A stretch of 25,905 nucleotides of DNA from a virus: positions 1 to 25,905 of the IMG/VR virus record IMGVR_UViG_3300030107_004755; one strand, given 5' to 3'. Both the position numbers and the translations under genes were made by a program. Below are positions 1 through 25,905 of this stretch, piece after piece (positions within the stretch are counted from its first letter, which is position 1; every line of letters starts with the position of its first letter). The notes under the pieces are model-generated. The model worked only from the letters and a program-made list of their open reading frames with translations, searched no databases and was not told the DNA's origin.

Positions 1-199
1 CTGGGAGCGTCTGTGTGTTTAGCCCCCCGCTAGTCACAGACAATTCACGGGGTTGGTTAGTGGGGATCTTGGACTGCATCCCCTTGACAGCGATTAGCTT
101 TTTAACCAACAATTTTGTTTGTTGGAGGAGCTAGGGGCTTCTGGTTATCCAGTATCGCTTTGCGGTTTCGCCCCCGCCAATCAGACCTTTTCCAGAAAG
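1..199. other. Structured intergenic segment, no convincing gene
   Basis: This stretch lies beyond the 3' end of the small gene at 200-421 and is cut by the window edge. It contains several nested inverted repeats: GTCTGTG (9-15) with CACAGAC (35-41); GTTGGTTA (52-59) with TAACCAAC (103-110), enclosing GGGGAT (62-67) with ATCCCC (78-83); CTGG/CCAG (141-152); and GCGG/CCGC (162-177). A folded RNA on either strand, or a protein-binding region, is possible. It does not match a tRNA, tmRNA or riboswitch that I recognise. A - strand reading frame from ATG at 79 stays open to the left edge (about 26 codons) but has no supporting start signal. Confidence 0.35.
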
Positions 200-421
200 C
201 TAGGAATTCTGTAACTCACTAAGAGAAAACTTGTCATTAAGAGACTTTGCGTGTTTGCGTGTCCACTTAATGTTATCCATGAAGGTGTCGAGCTTGTCAT
301 CTTCGACCTCCTCAAGACGGCTTGAAAGGTGTTGATGGGTGATTCCAAGTGCATAGTTAAGCAATGCAGCTTGTTCCTGTGTTTTTACTTCAATGCGAAG
401 TGATTCAGATGATTTAGACAT
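200..421 (-). CDS. Small phage protein of unknown function (73 aa)
   Basis: The 73-residue product starts MSKSSESLRIEVKTQEQ and is charged and helical in character, with no recognised domain, membrane segment or cysteine motif. The start is supported by a weak copy of the local promoter pattern: TTTACA, 17 bp, TAAATT, then exactly six bases (agcatc) before the ATG. This is the spacing seen in front of the other left-arm genes. No Shine-Dalgarno sequence is present. It is the last gene of the leftward array visible here and lies downstream of a terminator-like hairpin, so it is probably its own transcription unit. Function unknown. Confidence 0.7.
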   Translation of the reverse strand: MSKSSESLRIEVKTQEQAALLNYALGITHQHLSSRLEEVEDDKLDTFMDNIKWTRKHAKSLNDKFSLSELQNS

Positions 422-426
422 GATGC

Positions 427-455
427 TAATTTAATGTATGGTTTGTTATTTGTAA
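427..455 (-). promoter_or_regulatory. Weak sigma70-like promoter for 200-421
   Basis: Read on the - strand, TTTACA (-35) is separated by 17 bp from TAAATT (-10), and six bases later comes the ATG at 421. The hexamers are poorer than in the other left-arm promoters, but the spacing from the -10 box to the ATG is the same. Confidence 0.45.
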
Positions 456-517
456 AGGAAAAAGTTGGGGAACGGGGGTGGTAGCACTCCGTTGGGGCTT
501 TCCTCCCCCCGCTCCCC
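454..517 (-). terminator. Probable intrinsic terminator after the 532-822 gene
   Basis: On the - strand a long GC-rich stem pairs the arm at 506-517 with the arm at 467-478 (11 of 12 pairs, GGGG..CGGGGG against CCCCCG..CCCC). It is followed by AACTTTTTCCTTT. It lies just beyond the stop codon at 532 and before the promoter of 200-421. The loop is long (about 27 nt) and may hold a second hairpin, which lowers confidence. Confidence 0.45.
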
Positions 518-531
518 TGTTGTGGGGTAAC

Positions 532-822
532 CTACACGATCACCTCAATCCCGTCAAGGATAAGATTTCTGTATTTCTCAGTCCCTCCGTCATCAACGTC
601 TTGGACTTTTGCGGTTACATACCTGCTACCGCTTGCCTCGGACTTGCACACATCCTCGATTGACTTGATCTTGAAGGTGCGAACCTTGGGATCAGCAACG
701 GAGGACTTGTTGTGGAAGTTCTCATACCGAACAGTTTTACCTGTAAGGGTAGATGCGAGGTGGACGGGATTTTGAGGGAAGAGCCGAAGCTCTCTGTCTT
801 GTGTTGGGCGTTGTATTTGCAT
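532..822 (-). CDS. Small phage protein of unknown function (96 aa; possible 122-aa long form from 900)
   Basis: The frame is open from ATG 900 to the stop at 532. I place the main start at ATG 822 (MQIQRPTQDREL) because a local-consensus promoter (TTGCAA, 16 bp, TATAGT) ends seven bases before it, as for the neighbouring genes. A second promoter with a perfect TATAAT (938-965) lies upstream and would make a transcript with a leader of about 30 nt. That transcript could give a longer form with a basic N-terminal extension (MLNFLRKKKKTINSLAIPVN). The C-terminal half (FKIKSIEDV, RYVTAKVQDVDDGG) looks like a small beta-rich domain, but I do not recognise a family. Which form is made is an inference. 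Confidence 0.7.
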   Translation of the reverse strand: MQIQRPTQDRELRLFPQNPVHLASTLTGKTVRYENFHNKSSVADPKVRTFKIKSIEDVCKSEASGSRYVTAKVQDVDDGGTEKYRNLILDGIEVIV

Positions 823-829
823 AGGCTTA

Positions 830-857
830 ACTATAATCGAATTCACAGGGATTGCAA
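830..857 (-). promoter_or_regulatory. Sigma70-type promoter, near-leaderless, for 532-822
   Basis: The - strand shows TTGCAA, 16 bp, TATAGT, then seven bases to the ATG at 822. It lies inside the longer reading frame that begins at 900. Confidence 0.65.
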
Positions 858-937
858 GTGAATTTATTGTCTTTTTTTTCTTTCTAAGGAAGTTGAGCAT
901 GGTTGGTGTGTAGGTTGGTTATCTTGTTACGAGCCAC

Positions 938-965
938 ATTATACAGCATTTTGACAAATATGCAA
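938..965 (-). promoter_or_regulatory. Sigma70-type promoter upstream of ATG 900
   Basis: The - strand shows TTGCAT (960-965), 16 bp, and a perfect TATAAT (938-943). Unlike the other left-arm promoters it is 37 bp from the next ATG (900), so the predicted mRNA has a leader of about 30 nt with no Shine-Dalgarno sequence. Confidence 0.6.
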
Positions 966-1006
966 GCACTTTCTGCATTAAAATTCATTTTTTTTCACTT
1001 CAGTCA

Positions 1007-1081
1007 TAACTCGTTGAGCATCAACGAGTTACGGGGGCGCGGCCCCCGCGCTTGCGTAAGTCCTTGAGACTTAGCAAGTTA
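1007..1081. repeat. 75-bp composite palindromic element 1
   Basis: Unit A (1007-1031) is a perfect inverted repeat, TAACTCGTTGA and TCAACGAGTTA around a 3-nt loop. A 25-bp GC-rich spacer (1032-1056) follows and contains its own palindrome (GGGGGC/GCCCCC). Unit B (1057-1081) is a degenerate copy. The two units start exactly 50 bp apart. The element lies immediately 3' of the - strand gene that ends at 1088. Confidence 0.85.
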
Positions 1082-1087
1082 TGCGGG

Positions 1088-1303
1088 TTACCCGAAAACC
1101 GAGTCCTGACAAGTCTGGCACATGCCAGAGATGTGGAACTCCTTCAGGCTCAACTCGTCCTTGAACGAGTCGAGGGTGACGGCAGACCCGCAGCAAGGGC
1201 AGGTCTTGGAGGTGATCGCCTCGCGACGATCCACGCCAGTGATGGCGCTGATGGCAGACTCCAACTCGGGAGCCTTGACGGTGGGTGTAGGTTTCCATTC
1301 CAT
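1088..1303 (-). CDS. Small zinc-ribbon phage protein (71 aa)
   Basis: The 71-residue product begins MEWKPTPTVKAPELESAI. Its C-terminal half carries two cysteine pairs, CPCC near residue 35 and CQTC near residue 63, ending in QDSVFG. This layout suggests a four-cysteine zinc ribbon. Short proteins ending in a C-x-x-C-Q-D-x-x-F-G type tail are common among phage hypotheticals, as far as I recall. The start codon lies five bases after the stop of the upstream gene (1309-1461), so the two are almost certainly co-transcribed from the promoter at 1468-1495. The stop is six bases from composite element 1. DNA or protein binding is plausible, but the function is unknown. Confidence 0.8.
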   Translation of the reverse strand: MEWKPTPTVKAPELESAISAITGVDRREAITSKTCPCCGSAVTLDSFKDELSLKEFHISGMCQTCQDSVFG

Positions 1304-1308
1304 AATTT

Positions 1309-1461
1309 TTAGTCAGTAGGGAGTTGATCTTCGTCGGTGGAGAAACGCGGATCGCGGTCGCCCAGTTCCGCGTGGACTTCCGCGAGGAGTTCTTGAATTT
1401 CGCGAGGGTCGTGGTCGAACATCTCGCGTGGGTCTTGCTTTGCTAGCTCGTCGATTGTCAT
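1309..1461 (-). CDS. Small acidic protein, leaderless gene (50 aa)
   Basis: The frame gives a 50-residue, strongly acidic, mostly helical product beginning MTIDELAKQDPREMFDHD and containing two DPRE repeats. The start is set by the promoter TTGCGT, 16 bp, TATAGT, with exactly six bases (tccact) before the ATG. The next gene (1088-1303) begins five bases after its stop. No domain is recognised. Its low pI and small size would fit an early inhibitor or DNA-mimic-like protein, but that is speculation. Confidence 0.75.
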   Translation of the reverse strand: MTIDELAKQDPREMFDHDPREIQELLAEVHAELGDRDPRFSTDEDQLPTD

Positions 1462-1467
1462 AGTGGA

Positions 1468-1495
1468 ACTATACCACAGGTTGGAGGAAACGCAA
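1468..1495 (-). promoter_or_regulatory. Sigma70-type leaderless promoter for 1309-1461 and 1088-1303
   Basis: The - strand shows TTGCGT (1490-1495), 16 bp, TATAGT (1468-1473), six bases, ATG at 1461. An A-rich tract just upstream of the -35 box resembles an UP element. Confidence 0.8.
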
Positions 1496-1526
1496 GGTCT
1501 TTTTTGTATTTTTTTACGATTGTTCG

Positions 1527-1601
1527 TAAGTCGTTGAGTATCAACGAGTTACGGGCGCGGGGCGGGCGCTCCCGCGTAAGTCGTTAAGTATCAATCACTT
1601 A
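1527..1601. repeat. 75-bp composite palindromic element 2
   Basis: Unit A is at 1527-1551, the GC-rich spacer at 1552-1576 and unit B at 1577-1601, again exactly 25+25+25 bp. Unit B overlaps the stop codon of the - strand gene 1595-1759. Confidence 0.85.
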
Positions 1602-1759
1602 GAGTCTCTTTTTCTGCGAGCCAGTTCTTTGCACCAGTCTAATTTCTCAATCAATTCTTTGCGGATATAAGTCCACCTGAGTTTATCTGGCTGTAGGTAT
1701 CTGATGTCACTTTCTAGATCAGCTAGTGCTTTTTGTAGTTCTGTTATCGGTTCATGCAT
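1595..1759 (-). CDS. Small basic helical protein (54 aa)
   Basis: The frame from ATG 1759 gives 54 residues: MHEPITELQKALADLESD at the N-terminus and a lysine/arginine-rich C-terminus (LARRKRDSK). It looks fully alpha-helical and may form a coiled coil. It has no promoter of its own with the local spacing. Its start lies inside the last codons of the 27-codon hydrophobic peptide gene (1744-1827) in another frame, so translation would depend on termination-reinitiation. It is the last gene of an operon that begins at 2329, and its stop codon lies inside composite element 2. Function unknown. Confidence 0.6.
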   Translation of the reverse strand: MHEPITELQKALADLESDIRYLQPDKLRWTYIRKELIEKLDWCKELARRKRDSK

Positions 1760-1827
1760 AAAAGTATTATCATTAAGATTATAGGGAAAAGAAAAGAAAA
1801 GATTGGTGCGATTATTATTTCAATCAT
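1744..1827 (-). CDS. 27-aa hydrophobic membrane peptide, translationally coupled
   Basis: The frame starts at ATG 1827, which overlaps the TGA stop of 1824-2135 (ATGA arrangement), and ends in TAA at 1744. The product begins MIEIIIAPIFSFLFPIILMI, followed by ILLCMNR. It is essentially one transmembrane segment with a short polar tail. It is too short for normal gene finders. Support is the exact stop/start overlap, the hydrophobicity and a second similar case at 3272-3343. Candidate roles are a holin/antiholin-like, superinfection-exclusion or membrane-stress peptide; none can be chosen from sequence. Confidence 0.55.
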   Translation of the reverse strand: MIEIIIAPIFSFLFPIILMIILLCMNR

Positions 1828-2135
1828 GATTGCCACTTGTTTTTGATTTTGATAGAACTATAGAGCTTGCCCATCTGAAAACCTTTGATTGCCGCAAAAG
1901 CAAGACAGGCAGATTTCACATCAAGATCGCGAGCAACACACTCCCAGAGATTAGCGTGATTACCATTCTTCTCTCTCATCTCATCCTCATTGATCCAAAT
2001 GAAAAGTTTACGATCATCTCCCCAACTTTCAAAGTTACCGATGTAGCCGAAGGTCAATCCATCAACATCTTTACAGCGATCACAGATCCTGCGCTCCAAA
2101 GTAACTTCTTCTCTTTGCTTATGGTTTGTTCTCAT
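1824..2135 (-). CDS. Unknown phage protein with a CxxC motif (103 aa)
   Basis: The product is 103 residues, starting MRTNHKQREEVTLERRICDR. A single CDRC pair (residues about 18-21) and many aromatic residues (ESWGDDRKLFIWINEDEM) point to a compact globular protein. I recognise no family. The start is two bases after the stop of 2138-2329, with AAGAAG just before it as a possible weak ribosome site. It is the second gene of the operon driven from 2336-2363. Its stop overlaps the start of the hydrophobic peptide at 1827. Confidence 0.75.
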   Translation of the reverse strand: MRTNHKQREEVTLERRICDRCKDVDGLTFGYIGNFESWGDDRKLFIWINEDEMREKNGNHANLWECVARDLDVKSACLAFAAIKGFQMGKLYSSIKIKNKWQS

Positions 2136-2137
2136 GT

Positions 2138-2329
2138 TTACTTCTTTGTTAGAGGTTTAACAGCGACATCAGAGATGTCATTACCGACAAAGCGGATATT
2201 AAATTCAAGAGCCTCCTCGGAGAGAAGATCCTTAGCAACAATCTCTCCGTCTTTGACAGAGAGTGAGAAGCCACCATCAACAGCGGCACATTCAAGATTA
2301 GAGAGGATTTGGTCAATTCGATTTATCAT
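2138..2329 (-). CDS. Unknown small protein, leaderless gene (63 aa)
   Basis: The true start is ATG 2329 (MINRIDQILSNLE). A longer frame begins at 2347, but the extra codons are the -10 region of the promoter read as protein. The promoter is TTGCAA, 16 bp, TATACT, six bases, ATG. The product has a helical N-terminus and a beta-rich middle (GGFSLSVKDGEIVAKDLL) and no recognised domain. It is the first gene of a four-gene leftward operon reaching 1595. Confidence 0.75.
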   Translation of the reverse strand: MINRIDQILSNLECAAVDGGFSLSVKDGEIVAKDLLSEEALEFNIRFVGNDISDVAVKPLTKK

Positions 2330-2335
2330 AAGGGT

Positions 2336-2363
2336 AGTATACCACAAATTTAGAAACTTGCAA
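2336..2363 (-). promoter_or_regulatory. Sigma70-type leaderless promoter for the 1595-2329 operon
   Basis: The - strand shows TTGCAA (2358-2363), 16 bp, TATACT (2336-2341), six bases, ATG at 2329. Confidence 0.8.
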
Positions 2364-2442
2364 GCACTTTTTATTCTTTTTTATTCAGGTTGTAGGTCAT
2401 AGGTTAAATAGACAAATAGCAAATAGAACCCATGATTCTTCA

Positions 2443-2467
2443 TAACTCACTAAGTATCAACGACTTA
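2443..2467. repeat. Solitary 25-bp palindromic unit
   Basis: This is an additional copy of the 25-bp unit (TAACTCACTAAG then TATCAACGACTTA). It stands 37 bp, start to start, from the first unit of composite element 3, and an AT-rich 12-bp gap separates them instead of the 25-bp GC spacer. Confidence 0.8.
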
Positions 2468-2479
2468 TAGCTATCTTTG

Positions 2480-2554
2480 TAACTCCTTGGTTATCAACGA
2501 GTTACGCGGATTACCCCGCCCCGCCCGCGTAACTCTCTAAGCCTCAACGACTTA
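2480..2554. repeat. 75-bp composite palindromic element 3
   Basis: Unit A is at 2480-2504, the GC-rich spacer at 2505-2529 and unit B at 2530-2554. Unit B overlaps the stop codon of the - strand gene 2552-2785. The 25+25+25 layout is exact. Confidence 0.85.
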
Positions 2555-2785
2555 CGCGAACTCGACATCCTCCATCAAGAACGCTCGCACAGCGTCCTCG
2601 TTGATCGCGTCACTGAGGTCATCAGCGTCATCGGCGCGGCGATCCTGACCGCCCGACCGCCACGCGCCCACCTGCGTAGGCTCGTCGTAGTCGTGACAGG
2701 CGCGAGCGGGAGGCAACGCCTCCAGCAACTCCTCCATGCTAAGGGTTCCGTAGTATCCGTGATTGTAGGCTTCTCTGTCAGTCAT
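2552..2785 (-). CDS. Acidic unknown protein, leaderless gene (77 aa)
   Basis: The 77-residue product begins MTDREAYNHGYYGTLSMEEL and has an aspartate-rich middle (RRADDADDLSDAINEDAV). Its coding DNA is visibly richer in GC than the neighbours at 1595-2329, which may point to separate acquisition. The start is fixed by TTGCGG, 16 bp, TATAGT, six bases, ATG. It stands alone between composite elements 3 and 4. No known domain is recognised. Confidence 0.75.
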   Translation of the reverse strand: MTDREAYNHGYYGTLSMEELLEALPPARACHDYDEPTQVGAWRSGGQDRRADDADDLSDAINEDAVRAFLMEDVEFA

Positions 2786-2791
2786 AGGTAT

Positions 2792-2819
2792 ACTATAGCA
2801 CAGGCTCGCAGAACCGCAA
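2792..2819 (-). promoter_or_regulatory. Sigma70-type leaderless promoter for 2552-2785
   Basis: The - strand shows TTGCGG (2814-2819), 16 bp, TATAGT (2792-2797), six bases, ATG at 2785. An A-rich tract lies upstream. Confidence 0.8.
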
Positions 2820-2850
2820 GCGTTTTTTTGTGTTTTTATTCGATTCTTTG

Positions 2851-2925
2851 TAACTCACTAAGCGTCAACGAGTTACGCGGCGCGGGCGGCGCGGCCCGCG
2901 TAACTCCCTGAGTATCAACGAGTTA
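2851..2925. repeat. 75-bp composite palindromic element 4
   Basis: Unit A is at 2851-2875, the GC-rich spacer at 2876-2900 (CGCGGCGCGGGC... ending CCCGCG) and unit B at 2901-2925. The element is 26 bp beyond the 3' end of the - strand gene 2952-3269. Confidence 0.85.
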
Positions 2926-2951
2926 CGCTGTCAAGCGTTTTTTTCTTTTTT

Positions 2952-3269
2952 TTACGCCACGGTGAGGTCATCACTCTTGACCATCAAGTCCTCCTTGATG
3001 AGCCTGTGACGGCAGACGGGATGAATGTCTGGGCGGCTGTCCCTACGCAAGCGCAAGACGGTGGCGAGTATCTCCTCGCACACTCTGCGGAAGTCGCGGA
3101 TATCGCGCCGCTCCTCAACTGCGTCCTTGCACATGGTGATGATGACGGCGGCGGTGTAGGTGTCAACCTTGTCCTCAAGAGAACACCCTGCGCCCCTTTC
3201 TTTGGTGCGGCAAGCCTTGAGGGTTTCAACGATCACGGAGTAGATGAATGCTGGTTTTTTGACGGTCAT
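2952..3269 (-). CDS. Unknown basic helical protein (105 aa)
   Basis: The product is 105 residues (MTVKKPAFIYSVIVETLKAC...), with mixed charge, arginine-rich towards the C-terminus (LRLRRDSRPDIHPVCRHRL), and three or four cysteines without a clear metal-site spacing. Its ATG lies two bases after the stop of the 23-codon hydrophobic peptide (3272-3343). It has no promoter at leaderless spacing, so it is probably translated by coupling as the third gene of the unit starting at 3534. Composite element 4 follows its stop. The GC-rich codon use contrasts with the AT-rich genes elsewhere. Function unknown. Confidence 0.7.
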   Translation of the reverse strand: MTVKKPAFIYSVIVETLKACRTKERGAGCSLEDKVDTYTAAVIITMCKDAVEERRDIRDFRRVCEEILATVLRLRRDSRPDIHPVCRHRLIKEDLMVKSDDLTVA

Positions 3270-3271
3270 GA

Positions 3272-3343
3272 TTAAAGGTAGTTTTGAATTTGTGTTAGTA
3301 TGTAGATTAGGAAGCCGACTATTGCGATTATTGGATTATCCAT
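3272..3343 (-). CDS. 23-aa hydrophobic membrane peptide, translationally coupled
   Basis: The ATG at 3343 shares its first base with the TAA stop of 3343-3534 (TAATG), and the frame ends in TAA at 3272. The product begins MDNPIIAIVGFLIYILTQIQ and then NYL: a single predicted membrane span with a short polar N-terminus. The downstream gene (2952-3269) starts two bases after it, so it fills the gap between two genes exactly. It resembles the peptide at 1744-1827 in size, hydrophobicity and coupling, although the sequences are not clearly related. Function unknown. Confidence 0.55.
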   Translation of the reverse strand: MDNPIIAIVGFLIYILTQIQNYL

Positions 3344-3534
3344 TATGGGCGCATCTTGATTTCTGCAACTGCTTCATCAAGTCTGCGCTCGATCTTCTTG
3401 AAACCCTCCTTTTGGAAAGCGTCTTTTGCCCATTCAGCATTTGCAGCAGCAGTGCCAGAGATGCCTTGCACCTTCATGCGGAGCTTGAAGATTTGATCCT
3501 TGAGGTGTTCGATTTGTCTTTCTTGGTCTGTCAT
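3343..3534 (-). CDS. Small helical protein, paralogue of 4854-5060 (63 aa)
   Basis: The 63-residue product begins MTDQERQIEHLKDQIFKLRM and looks like a coiled coil. It aligns along its length with the product of 4854-5060: both start MTD-x-E, share a G-[IV]-S-G turn in the middle, then a W, and end with K-[KV]-[IV]-E-x-RLDEA. The two genes therefore look like a duplication. The promoter is TTGCAC, 17 bp, TATAGT, six bases, ATG. It is the first gene of a three-gene unit with the 23-codon peptide and 2952-3269. An oligomerising or accessory role is likely, but the function is unknown. Confidence 0.75.
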   Translation of the reverse strand: MTDQERQIEHLKDQIFKLRMKVQGISGTAAANAEWAKDAFQKEGFKKIERRLDEAVAEIKMRP

Positions 3535-3540
3535 GATGTA

Positions 3541-3569
3541 ACTATACTCTATGATTTGAATTAGTGCAA
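3541..3569 (-). promoter_or_regulatory. Sigma70-type leaderless promoter for 3343-3534 and followers
   Basis: The - strand shows TTGCAC (3564-3569), 17 bp, TATAGT (3541-3546), six bases, ATG at 3534. Confidence 0.8.
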
Positions 3570-3597
3570 GTGAAAAGATGATTTTTTTTTCAGTTTT

Positions 3598-3852
3598 TTA
3601 TCGGCCTATGCCGAAGCTGACGCGACCGTGCGCGATGTCAAGTTGGTCGCCGTGCGCCTCCCATGCCGCCTCACGGCTAGGGAATTCGACAATGCGACCA
3701 GTTCCCTCCGCGATTTTAGCGTAAGGGTTACGGATGAGACGCTCGCACTTTTCGCGCTTCCAGTTACCGCCGAAGCAGACCTCGCCAGAGATGCCACGGT
3801 GAGTTTTCTTTTTACCGAAGAGAACGAAGAAGGGTGTTTGCTTATCTTTCAT
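3598..3852 (-). CDS. Unknown small protein, leaderless gene (84 aa)
   Basis: The start is ATG 3852 (MKDKQTPFFVLFGKKKTHRG). A longer frame back to 3909 only reads through the promoter. The 84-residue product is basic with aromatic residues and a FPSREAAWEAHGDQLD segment. That segment looks like a short alpha/beta domain that might bind nucleic acid or nucleotide, but I recognise no family. The promoter is TTGCGT, 16 bp, TATACT, six bases, ATG. It is a single-gene unit, and the next promoter starts about 30 bp beyond its stop. Confidence 0.75.
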   Translation of the reverse strand: MKDKQTPFFVLFGKKKTHRGISGEVCFGGNWKREKCERLIRNPYAKIAEGTGRIVEFPSREAAWEAHGDQLDIAHGRVSFGIGR

Positions 3853-3858
3853 ACTGGT

Positions 3859-3886
3859 AGTATACCACACCCCCAGAGAAACGCAA
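3859..3886 (-). promoter_or_regulatory. Sigma70-type leaderless promoter for 3598-3852
   Basis: The - strand shows TTGCGT (3881-3886), 16 bp, TATACT (3859-3864), six bases, ATG at 3852. A long A tract lies upstream of the -35 box. Confidence 0.8.
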
Positions 3887-3958
3887 GTTTTATTTTCGTT
3901 TTTTTTCACTTTTTTTTCTCAACTTTTCGCTTGACATGACTTTTAGTAACAACTTGCG

Positions 3959-4033
3959 TAAGTCACTGAGTATCAACGACTTACGCGGCGCGGGGGGCCG
4001 CGCCCGCGTAACTCCCTAAGTATCAAGGAGTTA
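3959..4033. repeat. 75-bp composite palindromic element 5
   Basis: Unit A is at 3959-3983, the GC-rich spacer at 3984-4008 and unit B at 4009-4033, exactly 25+25+25 bp. It lies 35 bp beyond the 3' end of the small basic gene at 4069-4188. Confidence 0.85.
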
Positions 4034-4068
4034 CGGGGCTTTTTACTGGCACTTGACTGACTGACTTG

Positions 4069-4188
4069 TCAAGAATTTTCTTGCAGTTTTTTTCTGCGCT
4101 TCTCGGCAACCTTCTGCATCCGAATGATTTTATTCTTGCGGTTGCGCTTCAGTTGCTTGCGGTGTTTGGTAGCGGCTCTCTTGTCCAT
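4069..4188 (-). CDS. 39-aa highly basic peptide
   Basis: The frame from ATG 4188 gives 39 residues, MDKRAATKHRKQLKRNRKNK followed by a further helical basic stretch (IIRMQKVAEKRRKKLQ) and ENS. Nearly half the residues are lysine or arginine. It lies 18 bp downstream of the membrane protein gene 4207-4527, on the same strand, and is followed by composite element 5. Nucleic-acid binding is the natural guess from composition. A ribosome-like or host-takeover peptide is possible, but nothing here decides it. Confidence 0.55.
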   Translation of the reverse strand: MDKRAATKHRKQLKRNRKNKIIRMQKVAEKRRKKLQENS

Positions 4189-4206
4189 GATTTTTTTTTG
4201 TGTGTG

Positions 4207-4527
4207 TTAGAGTTTGATGTCTACGAGTTGTTTGCCTGTGATAGTGTTAGGTGTGCGCTTGCGCTTCTTTGGTGCGTTGAGCCAGTCAACGAACGTGAGC
4301 AAAGGAGCGAAGAACATAGCAGGTAAGAAAGTGACAGCGGCAAAGTGTAAGAAGTTATAGGCATGATACCATACCTCGCCGTCAGGGTTGGTGACATAGT
4401 AGCCACCCATATTATCGAGTGCTAAGTCTAAGCCTACGAAGTAAGCCATCAGGCCGAAGATCCCAAGGATTGCGAGAGTTGTAATGCCTACAACAGTGAC
4501 GAAGTGATTGATGAAGATTTGTTTCAT
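4207..4527 (-). CDS. Small membrane protein with two or three spans (106 aa)
   Basis: Hydrophobic segments lie at residues about 8-32 (VTVVGITTLAILGIFGLMAY) and about 58-84 (FLHFAAVTFLPAMFFAPLLT). Between them is a polar stretch with tyrosines (GGYYVTNPDGEVWYHAYN), and a basic tail follows (NAPKKRKRTPNTITGKQL). This suggests two membrane spans with the basic tail in the cytoplasm. It lies 40 bp after the stop of 4568-4801 and lacks a promoter with the local spacing, so it is probably co-transcribed from 4808-4835. A TATAAT three bases before its ATG has no -35 partner. A holin role is possible but not supported by any neighbouring lysis gene. Confidence 0.7.
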   Translation of the reverse strand: MKQIFINHFVTVVGITTLAILGIFGLMAYFVGLDLALDNMGGYYVTNPDGEVWYHAYNFLHFAAVTFLPAMFFAPLLTFVDWLNAPKKRKRTPNTITGKQLVDIKL

Positions 4528-4567
4528 TGGATTATAGTAGTTTATTTTTTTTTGTTTTGTTAGATTA

Positions 4568-4801
4568 TTATCGGCAGTCCTCAGTCCACCAGACTCTTGC
4601 CTCGGTGTCTACCCAACACTCAACGCCTCTGTTGTTGTGGTAGAATCTGCCAGCCTTGCCAAGCTCGCCATTGTTGTTTTTGTCTGCGTGTTCTTGGCGT
4701 TGCTTTCTGTTGCTCTCCCAAGCTGAGTCAGTTGGCCAACAGGTGGCGATCTCCACACAGTCAACGATCTCGCCAGATTTGTTTTTGAATTGCTTTATCA
4801 T
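4568..4801 (-). CDS. Unknown small protein with W/C-rich end (77 aa)
   Basis: The 77-residue product begins MIKQFKNKSGEIVDCVEIAT, with a polar asparagine/lysine middle and a tryptophan- and cysteine-rich end (VECWVDTEARVWWTEDCR). Four cysteines are present but not in a zinc-ribbon spacing. The promoter is TTGCAT, 16 bp, TATACT, six bases, ATG. It heads a unit with the membrane protein (4207-4527) and the basic peptide (4069-4188). No family is recognised. Confidence 0.75.
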   Translation of the reverse strand: MIKQFKNKSGEIVDCVEIATCWPTDSAWESNRKQRQEHADKNNNGELGKAGRFYHNNRGVECWVDTEARVWWTEDCR

Positions 4802-4807
4802 GTCAGT

Positions 4808-4835
4808 AGTATACCAGTTATTGAGTTAAATGCAA
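4808..4835 (-). promoter_or_regulatory. Sigma70-type leaderless promoter for 4568-4801 and followers
   Basis: The - strand shows TTGCAT (4830-4835), 16 bp, TATACT (4808-4813), six bases, ATG at 4801. Confidence 0.8.
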
Positions 4836-4853
4836 GGATTATTTTGTTTTATT

Positions 4854-5060
4854 TTATCCGAAGATGATTTTAGAAACTACCTTGTCGTCTTGCTTGAGAG
4901 CTTCGTCTAGTCTGCCCTCAACCTTCTTGAGCCATACGGATGCCTCGGCATCGTTGCACCACATTGACATACCAGAGACTTGCCCCGATACCCCGCAGAT
5001 CTCCCCGCGTAGTCTTGAATTTGCTTCGATTAGTTTAGTGATCTTTTCGCTGTCAGTCAT
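4854..5060 (-). CDS. Small helical protein, paralogue of 3343-3534 (68 aa)
   Basis: The 68-residue product begins MTDSEKITKLIEANSRLRGE. It shares its whole layout with 3343-3534: MTD start, GVSG turn, central W, and a LKKVEGRLDEAL end. It differs in having two cysteines and an added C-terminal tail (KVVSKIIFG). The promoter is TTGCAT, 17 bp, TATAGT, six bases, ATG; the 17-bp spacer and the sequence around the -10 (TATAGTTACA) also match the paralogue, so promoter and gene may have been duplicated together. Function unknown. Confidence 0.75.
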   Translation of the reverse strand: MTDSEKITKLIEANSRLRGEICGVSGQVSGMSMWCNDAEASVWLKKVEGRLDEALKQDDKVVSKIIFG

Positions 5061-5066
5061 GTTGTA

Positions 5067-5095
5067 ACTATAGTCTAGATTTTGATTTAATGCAA
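5067..5095 (-). promoter_or_regulatory. Sigma70-type leaderless promoter for 4854-5060
   Basis: The - strand shows TTGCAT (5090-5095), 17 bp, TATAGT (5067-5072), six bases, ATG at 5060. Confidence 0.8.
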
Positions 5096-5099
5096 GTAT

Positions 5100-5282
5100 T
5101 TATTTTGTTTTTTTATAGAATTCTTGATTCATGAGAGCTTCGGCAATCTCATCGGCTAGCTCTTTAAAGTTTTTTGAAGTTGGACCGATTGGCAAAATGC
5201 CATTGGACATGAGGCGATCACAAGCCTCTCGATAGCATATGATGTAGTCGGTATCTGTTAAGTGCTTAGGTGCTTTTTTCAT
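5100..5282 (-). CDS. Unknown small protein (60 aa)
   Basis: The 60-residue product begins MKKAPKHLTDTDYIICYREA and is mostly helical and basic at both ends. I recognise no family. Its promoter is TTGCGC, 17 bp, TAAACT, six bases, ATG. The -35 box is embedded in a perfect 10-bp inverted repeat (5298-5321), unlike the other promoters. It is probably a single-gene unit. Confidence 0.7.
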   Translation of the reverse strand: MKKAPKHLTDTDYIICYREACDRLMSNGILPIGPTSKNFKELADEIAEALMNQEFYKKTK

Positions 5283-5288
5283 GTTTTA

Positions 5289-5317
5289 AGTTTACTCGAT
5301 CTTGCGCCGAAGCGCAA
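5289..5317 (-). promoter_or_regulatory. Leaderless promoter for 5100-5282, overlapping a hairpin
   Basis: The - strand shows TTGCGC (5312-5317), 17 bp, TAAACT (5289-5294), six bases, ATG at 5282. The -35 box is part of the right arm of the inverted repeat at 5298-5321. Confidence 0.65.
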
Positions 5318-5327
5318 GATCTTTTTT
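5298..5327 (+). terminator. Perfect 10-bp hairpin with T6 tail (+ strand terminator shape)
   Basis: GATCTTGCGC and GCGCAAGATC pair perfectly around a CGAA loop, and TTTTTT follows on the + strand. On the - strand the same hairpin has a UUCG loop closed by C-G, a very stable tetraloop, but no U tract. As a + strand terminator it has no + gene before it. It may stop antisense read-through or act on the - transcript from 5337-5636. Confidence 0.55.
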
Positions 5328-5336
5328 GTTTTTTTC

Positions 5337-5636
5337 TCACTTTATTATCGTGAGCTTGTCGAGTGCATCAACGCCGAAGTCAATGCCGAAGGGCGAAGGC
5401 TTGGACAGATCGCCCCAGTCTTCGATCTCGTTAAGCAGTGAAGTGGCAAGCGATGCCCAACAGTCGCGAGAGAATCCCGCTGTAGCGTTAGAGCATACAC
5501 GACGAACAACCAAGTCCACCGCATCAGTCGCGGCATCAGGAAACTTAGTTGTAAGGTGATCGAACAAAAGCTCGCCATCTTCATTGGCGAAGCGAGGAGC
5601 GAGACGGACGGCATCGGATATAAGTTGTGCTAACAT
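5337..5636 (-). CDS. Unknown protein, first leftward gene (99 aa)
   Basis: The start is ATG 5636 (MLAQLISDAVRLAPRFANED). The frame extends to 5654, but those codons are promoter. The 99-residue product is mainly helical, with a cysteine-containing centre (VVRRVCSNATAGFSRDCW) and an acidic C-terminal half. No family is recognised. The promoter is TTGCAT, 17 bp, TATACT, six bases, ATG. It is the most promoter-distal gene from the left end and lies back to back with the rightward PhoH operon. Confidence 0.75.
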   Translation of the reverse strand: MLAQLISDAVRLAPRFANEDGELLFDHLTTKFPDAATDAVDLVVRRVCSNATAGFSRDCWASLATSLLNEIEDWGDLSKPSPFGIDFGVDALDKLTIIK

Positions 5637-5642
5637 GCTGTA

Positions 5643-5671
5643 AGTATACCACACTTCTCAGATAAATGCAA
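5643..5671 (-). promoter_or_regulatory. Sigma70-type leaderless promoter for 5337-5636
   Basis: The - strand shows TTGCAT (5666-5671), 17 bp, TATACT (5643-5648), six bases, ATG at 5636. Confidence 0.8.
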
Positions 5672-5794
5672 GCTCTTTTTTGTTTTTTTATCACTTTTTT
5701 TAGGGGGAGGGTTTTTTCAGAATTCTTGACTTTTCGCTTGACAGCCACAGAGCGGGGGGGTGGTGAATTCTATAAACATCAAGCCATCCATTCA

Positions 5795-5815
5795 GTTCTT
5801 CGTGTAAAAAAGAAC
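5795..5815 (+). promoter_or_regulatory. Operator/promoter-like site before the PhoH operon
   Basis: GTTCTT (5795-5800) and AAGAAC (5810-5815) form an inverted repeat with GTGTAA (5802-5807) between them, 12 bases before the ATG at 5820. The divergent region 5672-5819 also holds TTGACA (5738-5743) and TATAAA (5771-5776), but they are 27 bp apart, too far for a standard sigma70 promoter. The 15-mer ACTTTTCGCTTGACA at 5729-5743 also occurs at 3922-3936. Confidence 0.4.
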
Positions 5816-24130: not shown

Positions 24131-25905
24131 ATGGCGACAAGTCTAAATGCATCCCTAAATGTTCAGTTAAATCCTCAGAGCTTAAATCAGGCTACTAAGC
24201 AGGTTTCGCAAGCTTTAGGGAGAATTACAGGGCAAGCTTCAGAGTTTCAAAAATCTCTAGATGCTTCTACAGCCCGTGTTTTTGCCTTCGGAGCTACAAC
24301 GGCTGTTTTAAATGGAGTAACTCAATCTTTTAAAAAGCTGGTCGCCACCACTATAGAAGTAGAAAAAAGGCTCATTGAGGTAAACTCAATATTTCAAGCA
24401 ACAGAGCAAAGTTTCAATAAGTTTAGAAATTCTATCTTTAGAGTTGCTAAAGAAACGGGGCAATCTTTCTCCACTGTAGCTGATGGGGCGGCAGAATTAG
24501 CTCGTCAGGGTTTAAGTGCAGAAGAGACAGCGAGTAGATTAAAATCCGCTTTAGTTTTAACTAGGATTTCAGGTTTAGACGCAGAGAAATCTGTAAAAGC
24601 TTTAACTGCTGCTATTAATGGATTCCAATCTGCTGGATTAAAGCACACAGAGATTGTTAATAAAATGGTTGCTGTTGATACGGCTTTTGCTGTATCGGCA
24701 CAAGATTTGGCAGAAGCTTTTAGTCGTGCTGGATCTACAGCAGAGGATGCTGGCGTAAGTTTTGATCAGCTTTTGGCTTTAGTGACAGCCGTTGAGCAAA
24801 AGACTGCAAGGGGTGGTGCTGTTATTGGTAACGCATTTAAATCAATTTTTACTAGGCTATCCAGAGGAACTACTATATCAGAATTGCAAGAGCTAGGAGT
24901 TGCTATAGATGCGACTCAAACAGGAGTGCAAAAATTGCAAGCACTTTCAACTGCAATAGAAGGCATCGCAGATCCTACCGTTGTTTCAAAAATTAAAGAA
25001 CTTGCAGGTGGTGTTTTCCAAATCAACGTAGTTAGTGCTGCTTTAAAAGATTTAAGTAGCGAGACGGGAATATTTAAAAATGCCGCTCAAACAGCGGCTA
25101 ACGCTACTAACGAGGCGTTTCAAAAAAATGCCGCTTTAGGAGAGAGTCTTGCTTCTAACATAAATGCACTAGTGGTAGGTCTTACTAGTTTGGCAGAAAA
25201 AGTAGGAACTATAACATTTGGCCCCTTGCTGGAAAATTTAGTTGGGATAGCAACGACTTTTACAGAGTTTCTAGATAAAGCTTTAGATCCAGAAAAGGGT
25301 AATACTTTTATCAAAGGGTTTTTTAAAGCTATAGGAAGTTTTCTTGGTGGGCCAGCAATTGTTATATTCACTGCTGCTTTTGCTAAAATTACGCAATTAA
25401 TCGGTCGATTCGCTGTTGAGGGTCTGAAATCATTATTTACAATAGGAACTCAAACAGAGAAAATTAGATCGGTTGAATCTAGTATAGTTCAGCTTTTACA
25501 GAGAGACGAAACTCTTCGTAATGCCATATTGAACTCAACAATGAGCCAGTCTCAAAAAGAGCAATTAGTCTTAAATGCTATCAGGCAAGAGAATGCTCTT
25601 TTAGAGAGACAGGCTGTAATTATGAGGAATATTGCTACAACGGCTCATGCGAGGGGTGTCAGAGGAACTCCTGCGGGTGGTTTCAGGGGCAGGTTCAATC
25701 AGGGTTTTAGGGCAGAAGAGGCTGAAGCAAGGATGTTGGGCGCTCCTGCTGGAGTTAAGGGAAGGATGAGCAAGGGAACTATTGGTGGACGAAAGTTCAT
25801 CATGAATAACCATGAAACAGAAATACCAAACTTTGCTGGTAGAGATTCTGCTGTTATTCCTCACTACTCTAGAGGATTTATTCCTAATTACTCAAGGCGA
25901 AATTT
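24131..25905 (+). CDS. Tape measure protein, 3' end beyond the window (591+ aa)
   Basis: This protein sets tail length and is packed inside the tail tube. The frame is open from ATG 24131 to the window edge. Residues about 95-175 carry the pattern of the phage minor tail/tape measure domain (TP901 type): RVAKETGQSFSTVADGAAEL, ARQGLSAEETASRLKSALVL, LDAEKSVKALTAAINGFQSA, GAVIGNAFKSIFTRLSRGTT. A hydrophobic segment lies near residues 405-425 (GGPAIVIFTAAFAKITQLIG), then a helical region (about 450-500) and a glycine/arginine-rich segment. The last 30 residues hold three related short motifs (EIPNFA, VIPHYS, FIPNYS). The rest of the gene is missing. Confidence 0.85.
   Translation, partial: MATSLNASLNVQLNPQSLNQATKQVSQALGRITGQASEFQKSLDASTARVFAFGATTAVLNGVTQSFKKLVATTIEVEKRLIEVNSIFQATEQSFNKFRNSIFRVAKETGQSFSTVADGAAELARQGLSAEETASRLKSALVLTRISGLDAEKSVKALTAAINGFQSAGLKHTEIVNKMVAVDTAFAVSAQDLAEAFSRAGSTAEDAGVSFDQLLALVTAVEQKTARGGAVIGNAFKSIFTRLSRGTTISELQELGVAIDATQTGVQKLQALSTAIEGIADPTVVSKIKELAGGVFQINVVSAALKDLSSETGIFKNAAQTAANATNEAFQKNAALGESLASNINALVVGLTSLAEKVGTITFGPLLENLVGIATTFTEFLDKALDPEKGNTFIKGFFKAIGSFLGGPAIVIFTAAFAKITQLIGRFAVEGLKSLFTIGTQTEKIRSVESSIVQLLQRDETLRNAILNSTMSQSQKEQLVLNAIRQENALLERQAVIMRNIATTAHARGVRGTPAGGFRGRFNQGFRAEEAEARMLGAPAGVKGRMSKGTIGGRKFIMNNHETEIPNFAGRDSAVIPHYSRGFIPNYSRRN

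Follow-up and report, generated by a model that had tools for sequence, protein, structure and literature searches.

A GFIPNF-type motif at the module joints of phage tape measure proteins with an exchangeable internal slot

Introduction

Phage tape measure proteins (TMPs) are generally regarded as rulers and channels. The last gene of the virus record IMGVR_UViG_3300030107_004755 encodes a protein of this kind, and the string GFIPNYS is found close to its visible end. The question raised by this locus is what such a string does in a TMP. The original prediction took GFIPNYS together with EIPNFA and VIPHYS as copies of a micro-repeat, possibly serving as processing sites, as lectin-like or membrane-active segments, or in setting tail length, and did not notice a role at the joints between modules. 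Here we analyze the window, which is the entire IMG/VR record of 25,905 bases (classed as linear), together with the relatives of its TMP.

Results

The Window Gene and Its Relatives

The TMP gene is located at positions 24131–25905 on the plus strand, as are all TMP features given below. Its frame (24131–25903) is open up to the end of the record and gives 591 residues. Residues 106–293 (24446–25009) matched the PhageMin_Tail domain, PF10145, with an E-value of 7.9e-25, which passed the cut-off. A PHROG search gave 19 matches, the best of which are named tape measures (PHROG 4211, 1.5e-43). Judged from these matches the gene is that of a phage tail length tape measure protein, in agreement with the original prediction.

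Relatives were collected by scanning IMG/VR with the 591 window residues (80 of 89 relatives kept) and with an N-terminal alignment (80 kept of at least 552, several contigs being duplicates of the first scan). Seven more came from genome contigs titled Halobacteriovorax (2), Neomarinimicrobiota, Flavobacteriales/Flavobacteriaceae (3), and Lachnospiraceae (distant). The working set consisted of 125 non-redundant TMPs (272,063 residues), and the first set of 60 non-redundant TMPs. The window TMP also matched 200 annotated phage records, all with less than 60% identity and none covering more than 80% of the query. The TMP of contig L002 was 81% identical to that of the window in the best segment and continues beyond the point where the window ends.

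The first part of the window (positions 1–5800) contained short ORFs on the minus strand (six of 103–122 residues) among repeated boxes. The repeats were GC-rich dyads of the type GTAACTC...GAGTTACG (an 84-nt unit present five times), six copies of a box around TATACCACA, and T-rich boxes. The G+C content of this region was 0.42–0.49, compared to 0.31–0.45 elsewhere in the window. Searches of the whole window for tRNAs and Rfam families gave no match. From these features the region looks like early genes with repeated regulatory units.

The Motif in Tape Measure Proteins

With its flanks, the motif reads [AS]-x-G-[FY]-[IV]-P-N-[FY]-A in the relatives. The pattern x-G-F-[IV]-P-N-[FY], which had been associated with very long phage proteins, was indeed recurrent, with 436 occurrences of G[FYLHIV][IV]P[NS][FYL] in the 125 non-redundant TMPs. 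At least one strict copy was found in 99 of the 125, at least two in 94 and at least four in 65; an absence of the motif from homologues, which would have spoken against the original prediction, is clearly not the case. In the 60 TMPs of the first set there were 116 copies of the core G[FY][IV]PN[FY] and 156 of a wider form, far more than the means of 0.005 and 0.115, respectively, that were obtained by shuffling the residues 200 times.

Elsewhere in these loci, 870 six-frame ORFs (244,665 residues) contained no core form, and their eight matches to the wider form were all to one string, SGIVPSL. This string is kept in another family, encoded by a gene downstream of the TMP gene (L008, L010, L015, L021, L024, L028, L031, and L033), and is either a look-alike of the linker motif or a related signal. 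IMG/VR was also scanned for DNA encoding GFIPNFA without limitation to TMPs, which gave at least 120 stretches. Among the matches listed, 106 of 120 encoding ORFs matched the TMP set, two further ORFs (L182 and L244) were read as TMP parts, two (L254 and L269) looked like TMP parts as judged from their first 60 residues, and the remaining ten were each of 247 residues or less. Within this sample the motif hardly occurs outside tape measures and comes close to being a signature of the TMP group studied here. L182, L244 and probably L254 are C-terminal parts of TMPs, with one motif followed by a small domain that by eye resembles domain A described below; small domains may therefore sit near the C-terminus too.

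An A or S was found at position −2 in 84% of the 436 copies; the figures for G, P, N/S, and the last residue are limited by the expression used in the search. When all other positions were required to match, an altered G or an altered P was almost unseen (1 and 2 cases, respectively, vs. 292). The DNA spelling differed between copies within one gene, with 12 spellings for the 12 copies in L064 and the same in L066, so selection acts on the protein. The motif is not needed by every TMP, since 26 of the 125 had no strict copy and 11 of the 60 in the first set had no loose copy. Some members of the window family carry weaker forms only, e.g., GGYMPKFA. The distances between motifs peaked at 60–100 and 240–320 residues, with a tail beyond 1,600.

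Copies within one protein tended to share variants. For the 85 TMPs with at least three copies, shared non-aromatic variants at the second motif place were found in 83 within-protein pairs vs. a mean of 22 (maximum 45). Counted by offset from G, the likeness within a protein slightly exceeded that of shuffles at places 1, 2, and 5, while place 4 showed no such excess (0.905 vs. 0.930 shuffled). The fraction of I in the motif correlated with background composition (0.38), and lineage or composition may contribute to the sharing of variants. Such sharing fits one recognizing partner per phage.

Domains Bracketed by the Motif

The common layout in the relatives is an N-terminal core, motif M1 (around residue 538), a small domain A of about 80 residues, M2 (around 620), a module of about 200–320 residues (around 250), M3 (around 890), a small domain B of about 70 residues, M4 (around 965), and the rest of the protein. 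The window contains the N-terminal core, domain A and M2, and the record stops just after M2. The L002 protein goes on with a module, M3, B, and M4. Further copies, expected downstream by the original prediction, were thus present in relatives, while the window record itself ends.

A Gly/Arg-rich stretch, noted earlier upstream of the three strings, forms the linker between the N-terminal core and domain A in the window (about residues 508–526, 25652–25708). At its end the window has NQGFRA (25697–25714) where L026, L027, L163, and L128 have G[FY][IV]PN[FY]A, and we read it as a degenerate M1 site from a side-by-side comparison by eye. Domain A follows, with approximate limits 25715–25873 and a predicted alpha+beta fold, placed by an alignment of relatives and an AlphaFold model of L002 residues 501–990 (61 sequences). 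EIPNFA (residues 563–568, 25817–25834), VIPHYS (residues 574–579, 25850–25867), and GFIPNYS were all present as described, with spacings of 11 and 9 residues. The L002 model placed the counterparts of EIPNF and of the V-I-P of VIPHY in strands of the folded domain (model residues 63–69 and 73–78, block pLDDT 90 and 86), with VIPHYS at a strand end. These two strings were therefore not supported as motif copies, and of the three proposed copies only GFIPNYS stands.

GFIPNYS is M2 (residues 582–588, 25874–25894), the presumed entrance of the cargo slot. A DNA pattern for GFIPNFA with up to two mismatches gave a single match in the window, at 25874; the chance level was a mean of 0.05, with one match in 5 of 100 shuffles. 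Its equivalent in L002, GFVPNY (model residues 83–88), lay within a stretch of pLDDT below 50 (82–91). The same holds for all three linker-motif copies of the L002 stretch, each placed in a segment of pLDDT below 50 between well-predicted domains, and this one predicted model is the basis for linker disorder. By its M2 the window protein belongs to the TMPs with a G[FY][IV]PN[FY] junction motif, a class defined here, the joint behavior being taken from relatives.

Profiles of A and B were built from motif-bracketed segments, and their matches in the 125 TMPs were unconstrained. There were 57 matches to A and 96 to B. All 57 A matches had the strict motif on at least one side and 42 had it on both; for the 96 B matches these numbers were 95 and 74. 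Of random windows, 1.6% were flanked by the motif on both sides. Near forms, e.g., GYISNFA and GMVPNYA, were present in several of the one-sided cases. A comparison of the A and B profiles by hhalign, made with motif-bracketed segments only, found no detectable relation; because the segments were chosen as bracketed, this comparison is silent on bracketing.

Alignments between TMPs also tended to end at the motif. BLAST alignment ends fell on the motif in 44.3% vs. 6.9% in an unmasked test, which has a bias, as conserved islands tend to halt alignments. In the fairer test the motif was masked, which by design lowers the share of ends at distance zero (5.5% vs. 6.8%), and 47.0% of the ends were within 10 residues of a motif vs. 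17.8% (maximum 23.0%). When redundant ends were collapsed the figures were 28.0% vs. 17.6% (maximum 19.1%).

Exchange of the Module Between M2 and M3

Forty TMPs with the four-motif layout gave 319 pairs that were at least 50% identical in the 250-residue stretch preceding M1. Domains A and B were both at least 50% identical in 86 of the 319, with the M2–M3 module below 25%. The reverse, a module of at least 50% identity with A or B below 25%, was found in none of the 319 pairs. The count of 86 was obtained from rounded identities and becomes 94 with unrounded ones, and these 94 pairs are non-independent as they are drawn from 27 proteins. In the pair L137/L120, the N-terminal stretch was 93%, A 87%, the module 24%, and B 90% identical.

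The position of the change was determined for the 94 pairs. Identity was 0.62–0.99 at positions −8 to −2 relative to M2 and 0.68–1.00 inside the motif, where G and P are fixed by the search. It fell to 0.44 at +6 and to 0.00–0.10 at +7 to +21. Before M3 it was 0.00–0.41, and it recovered in the motif and beyond. The same drop at the M2–M3 module was seen in DNA identity for three pairs, and three alternative module families were each found in several contigs. Chimeric assembly is therefore not a likely cause. At the level of sequence, the M2–M3 module is shown to be exchanged between relatives with breakpoints at the motif; the module might be likened to the exchanged effector domain that polymorphic toxins have on a conserved carrier.

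Cargo Modules

The 72 M2–M3 modules compared had an FE...FD...DxK pattern whose F, E, D, and K were at least 90% conserved (E160, D182, and K206). This pattern is reminiscent of PD-(D/E)XK nucleases. The predicted model of the module had a mean pLDDT of 87.2. Foldseek against PDB and BFVD gave no significant match to the module folds, and VIA-align on the module and cargo zone gave no Z of 5 or more. An hmmsearch of the module against PDB gave two lectin chains at an E-value of 0.9, i.e., at chance level. The 72 modules gave single weak matches in Pfam (best E-value 0.0052, a domain of unknown function), and seven cargo-zone segments gave nothing significant in PHROGs. Since the fold and profile searches gave nothing significant, the nuclease idea is one of signature only.

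Recognizable enzymes were found in other members. L069 carries a CCA/poly(A) polymerase head (PF01743, 3.7e-14; PDB CCA-adding enzyme, 5.2e-15), and L117 carries the same head (4.4e-19) plus tRNA_NucTran2_2 (1.4e-6). L140 carries a GNAT acetyltransferase (9.6e-7) and L168 a cytidyltransferase-related region (1.6e-7). Each of these enzyme stretches is located between two motifs, with one recognized enzyme per TMP. Longer TMPs have extra segments, which are motif-separated too. Most of the long TMPs scanned had no Pfam enzyme above the curated cut-off, and the cargo zone of L064 gave no match in 50,697 phage records.

A few readings were made by eye. In L075 (about residues 640–1590) two stretches look kinase-like and lie near the motif variants GHIPNF and GHIPSF; the kinase-like reading was dropped, as there was no PDB sequence match and no Pfam match. 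A P-loop in L064 and a HAD-like string in L068 are not relied on, and an RsgA match in L064 was below the cut-off.

Discussion

We consider it reasonably probable that the motif forms the junctions of a modular, cargo-bearing TMP, is read by a shared partner and likely serves as a processing site. The cargo would ride in the tail with the TMP and enter the cell at injection. The motif would act as a short linear motif that a single partner recognizes at the junctions of a given phage, and this partner would most likely be a protease that frees the cargo from the TMP, either in tail maturation or after entry. The apparent presence of exchangeable passenger domains in a TMP suggests that phage tails may deliver swappable cargo into bacteria. 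Processing, one of the roles named originally, is ranked first and docking second, because the motifs flank modules and because there are precedents. According to excerpts of PMC1796659, processing of TMPs is common and can even remove an internal segment, the lambda TMP was labeled at an inner-membrane complex during genome injection (PMC13190303, in excerpts), and a TMP-fused polymerase is known (PMC10770324, in excerpts).

The search for a partner among the genes of the same loci was negative for a protease, and no neighboring gene family clearly tracked the motif-rich class (65 rich and 24 poor loci). The best neighbor, a family of 97 residues, was found in 32% of the 65 rich and 8% of the 24 poor loci, in a test weakened by the frequent lack of downstream flanks and by the weaker motif that poor loci frequently retain. 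Autocatalysis by cysteine, or inteins of the Cys type, is unlikely since the TMPs are nearly free of cysteine. Only two cysteines were found in the 272,063 residues of the 125 TMPs, cargo zones included, both in L143, whereas cysteine made up 0.62% of the residues in the other ORFs of these loci (1,692). Three TMPs from isolates, the first whole and the others partial, had 0, 0, and 1 cysteine and the distant L088 protein had 6; the near-absence of cysteine may be general to TMPs.

The closest rival is docking or packing, where each disordered linker would bind to the lumen of the tail tube, to a tail chaperone or to the bundle of TMPs, and folded cargo would be kept in register or threaded with no cleavage. 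This would account for nearly all of the same data: a hydrophobic F-I-P-N-F pattern in linkers that are disordered in the L002 model, strict conservation of the motif, variants common to the copies of one protein, and the failure to find a protease. However, motifs that flank modules on both sides are more typical of polyprotein junctions. The loss of internal segments in TMPs of other phages (PMC1796659, in excerpts) also speaks for cleavage, and we regard docking as rather unlikely.

That the motif is a structural turn or cap which belongs to domains A and B and has no partner is improbable. It is favored by the motif being present on at least one side of every A match and all but one of the B matches. 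The motifs lie outside the folded domains in the L002 model, however, at pLDDT below 50, and some of them divide two larger segments (L069 at 1205 and L117 at 1535). Still less probable is that the motif is a recombination joint only, its DNA being a crossover site for module exchange with no role in the protein. The breakpoints do coincide with the motif, but the DNA spelling differs in 12 of 12 copies in both L064 and L066 while the protein is conserved, and the flanking A and B domains offer homology of their own. That the motif is a length-setting repeat, as also proposed originally, is the least probable and unsupported because the spacing is irregular and 26 of 125 relatives are without a strict copy, and although the number of motifs rises with TMP length (r = 0.78, many TMPs being incomplete), extra copies arrive with extra modules.

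A broader reading can be put forward tentatively, and with less confidence than the junction role itself: the TMP may be a polyprotein cargo carrier in a widespread class of tailed phages, where the conserved A/B tag pair and the cleavage motif define an exchangeable slot that releases diverse enzymes into the host during infection, as a phage counterpart of polymorphic effector delivery. TMPs resembling carriers with a standard joint were encoded on well over a hundred environmental contigs. The motif is a simple sequence handle for possible virion-delivered enzymes missed by profile searches, and it predicts where termini should fall, which makes TMP processing testable. If the cargo is released, the M2–M3 slot would be a fast-changing phage weapon or counter-defence.

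Several known systems resemble parts of this arrangement. Mycobacteriophage TMPs (TM4 gp17; PMC1796659) likewise have enzymatic domains inside the TMP that aid infection, and their processing is discussed; these domains are peptidoglycan hydrolases or related, and the excerpts of that paper mention no shared junction motif or exchange slot. The TMP-fused virion RNA polymerase of P23-45 (PMC10770324) is likewise an enzyme in a TMP that is proposed to be active at genome entry, but it is a single N-terminal polymerase, and no bracketing motif is described in the excerpted text. Polyvalent proteins of phages and conjugative elements (PMC5512222, in excerpts) are also injected multidomain proteins with GNAT, nucleotidyltransferase and other enzymes, for which peptidase processing is proposed. 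The term "tape measure" is absent from the main text of that paper, whereas the present scaffold is a TMP with one junction motif.

MuF polymorphic toxins of temperate phages (PMC5576092, in excerpts) similarly combine a conserved phage part with an exchangeable effector domain, but these are located on proteins of the DNA packaging module and not in an internal TMP slot. Sle1-type effectors of contractile injection systems (PMC13277306, in excerpts) have a TMP-related scaffold and an exchangeable functional part, which differs in being C-terminal and in belonging to contractile systems of Actinobacteria. A systematic study of mosaicism (PMC10684548) also found that TMPs give a mosaic signal by sequence; in its excerpted text genuine recent TMP mosaicism is left unconfirmed, whereas the pairs described here are clear cases at both the protein and the DNA level. 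Searches of open-licence papers found no description of the motif, nor of a TMP with a joint motif and an exchangeable slot. TMPs with enzyme modules were already known, as were polyvalent proteins and the polymorphic toxins of phages; what would be new is the standard joint motif together with the exchangeable slot in the TMP.
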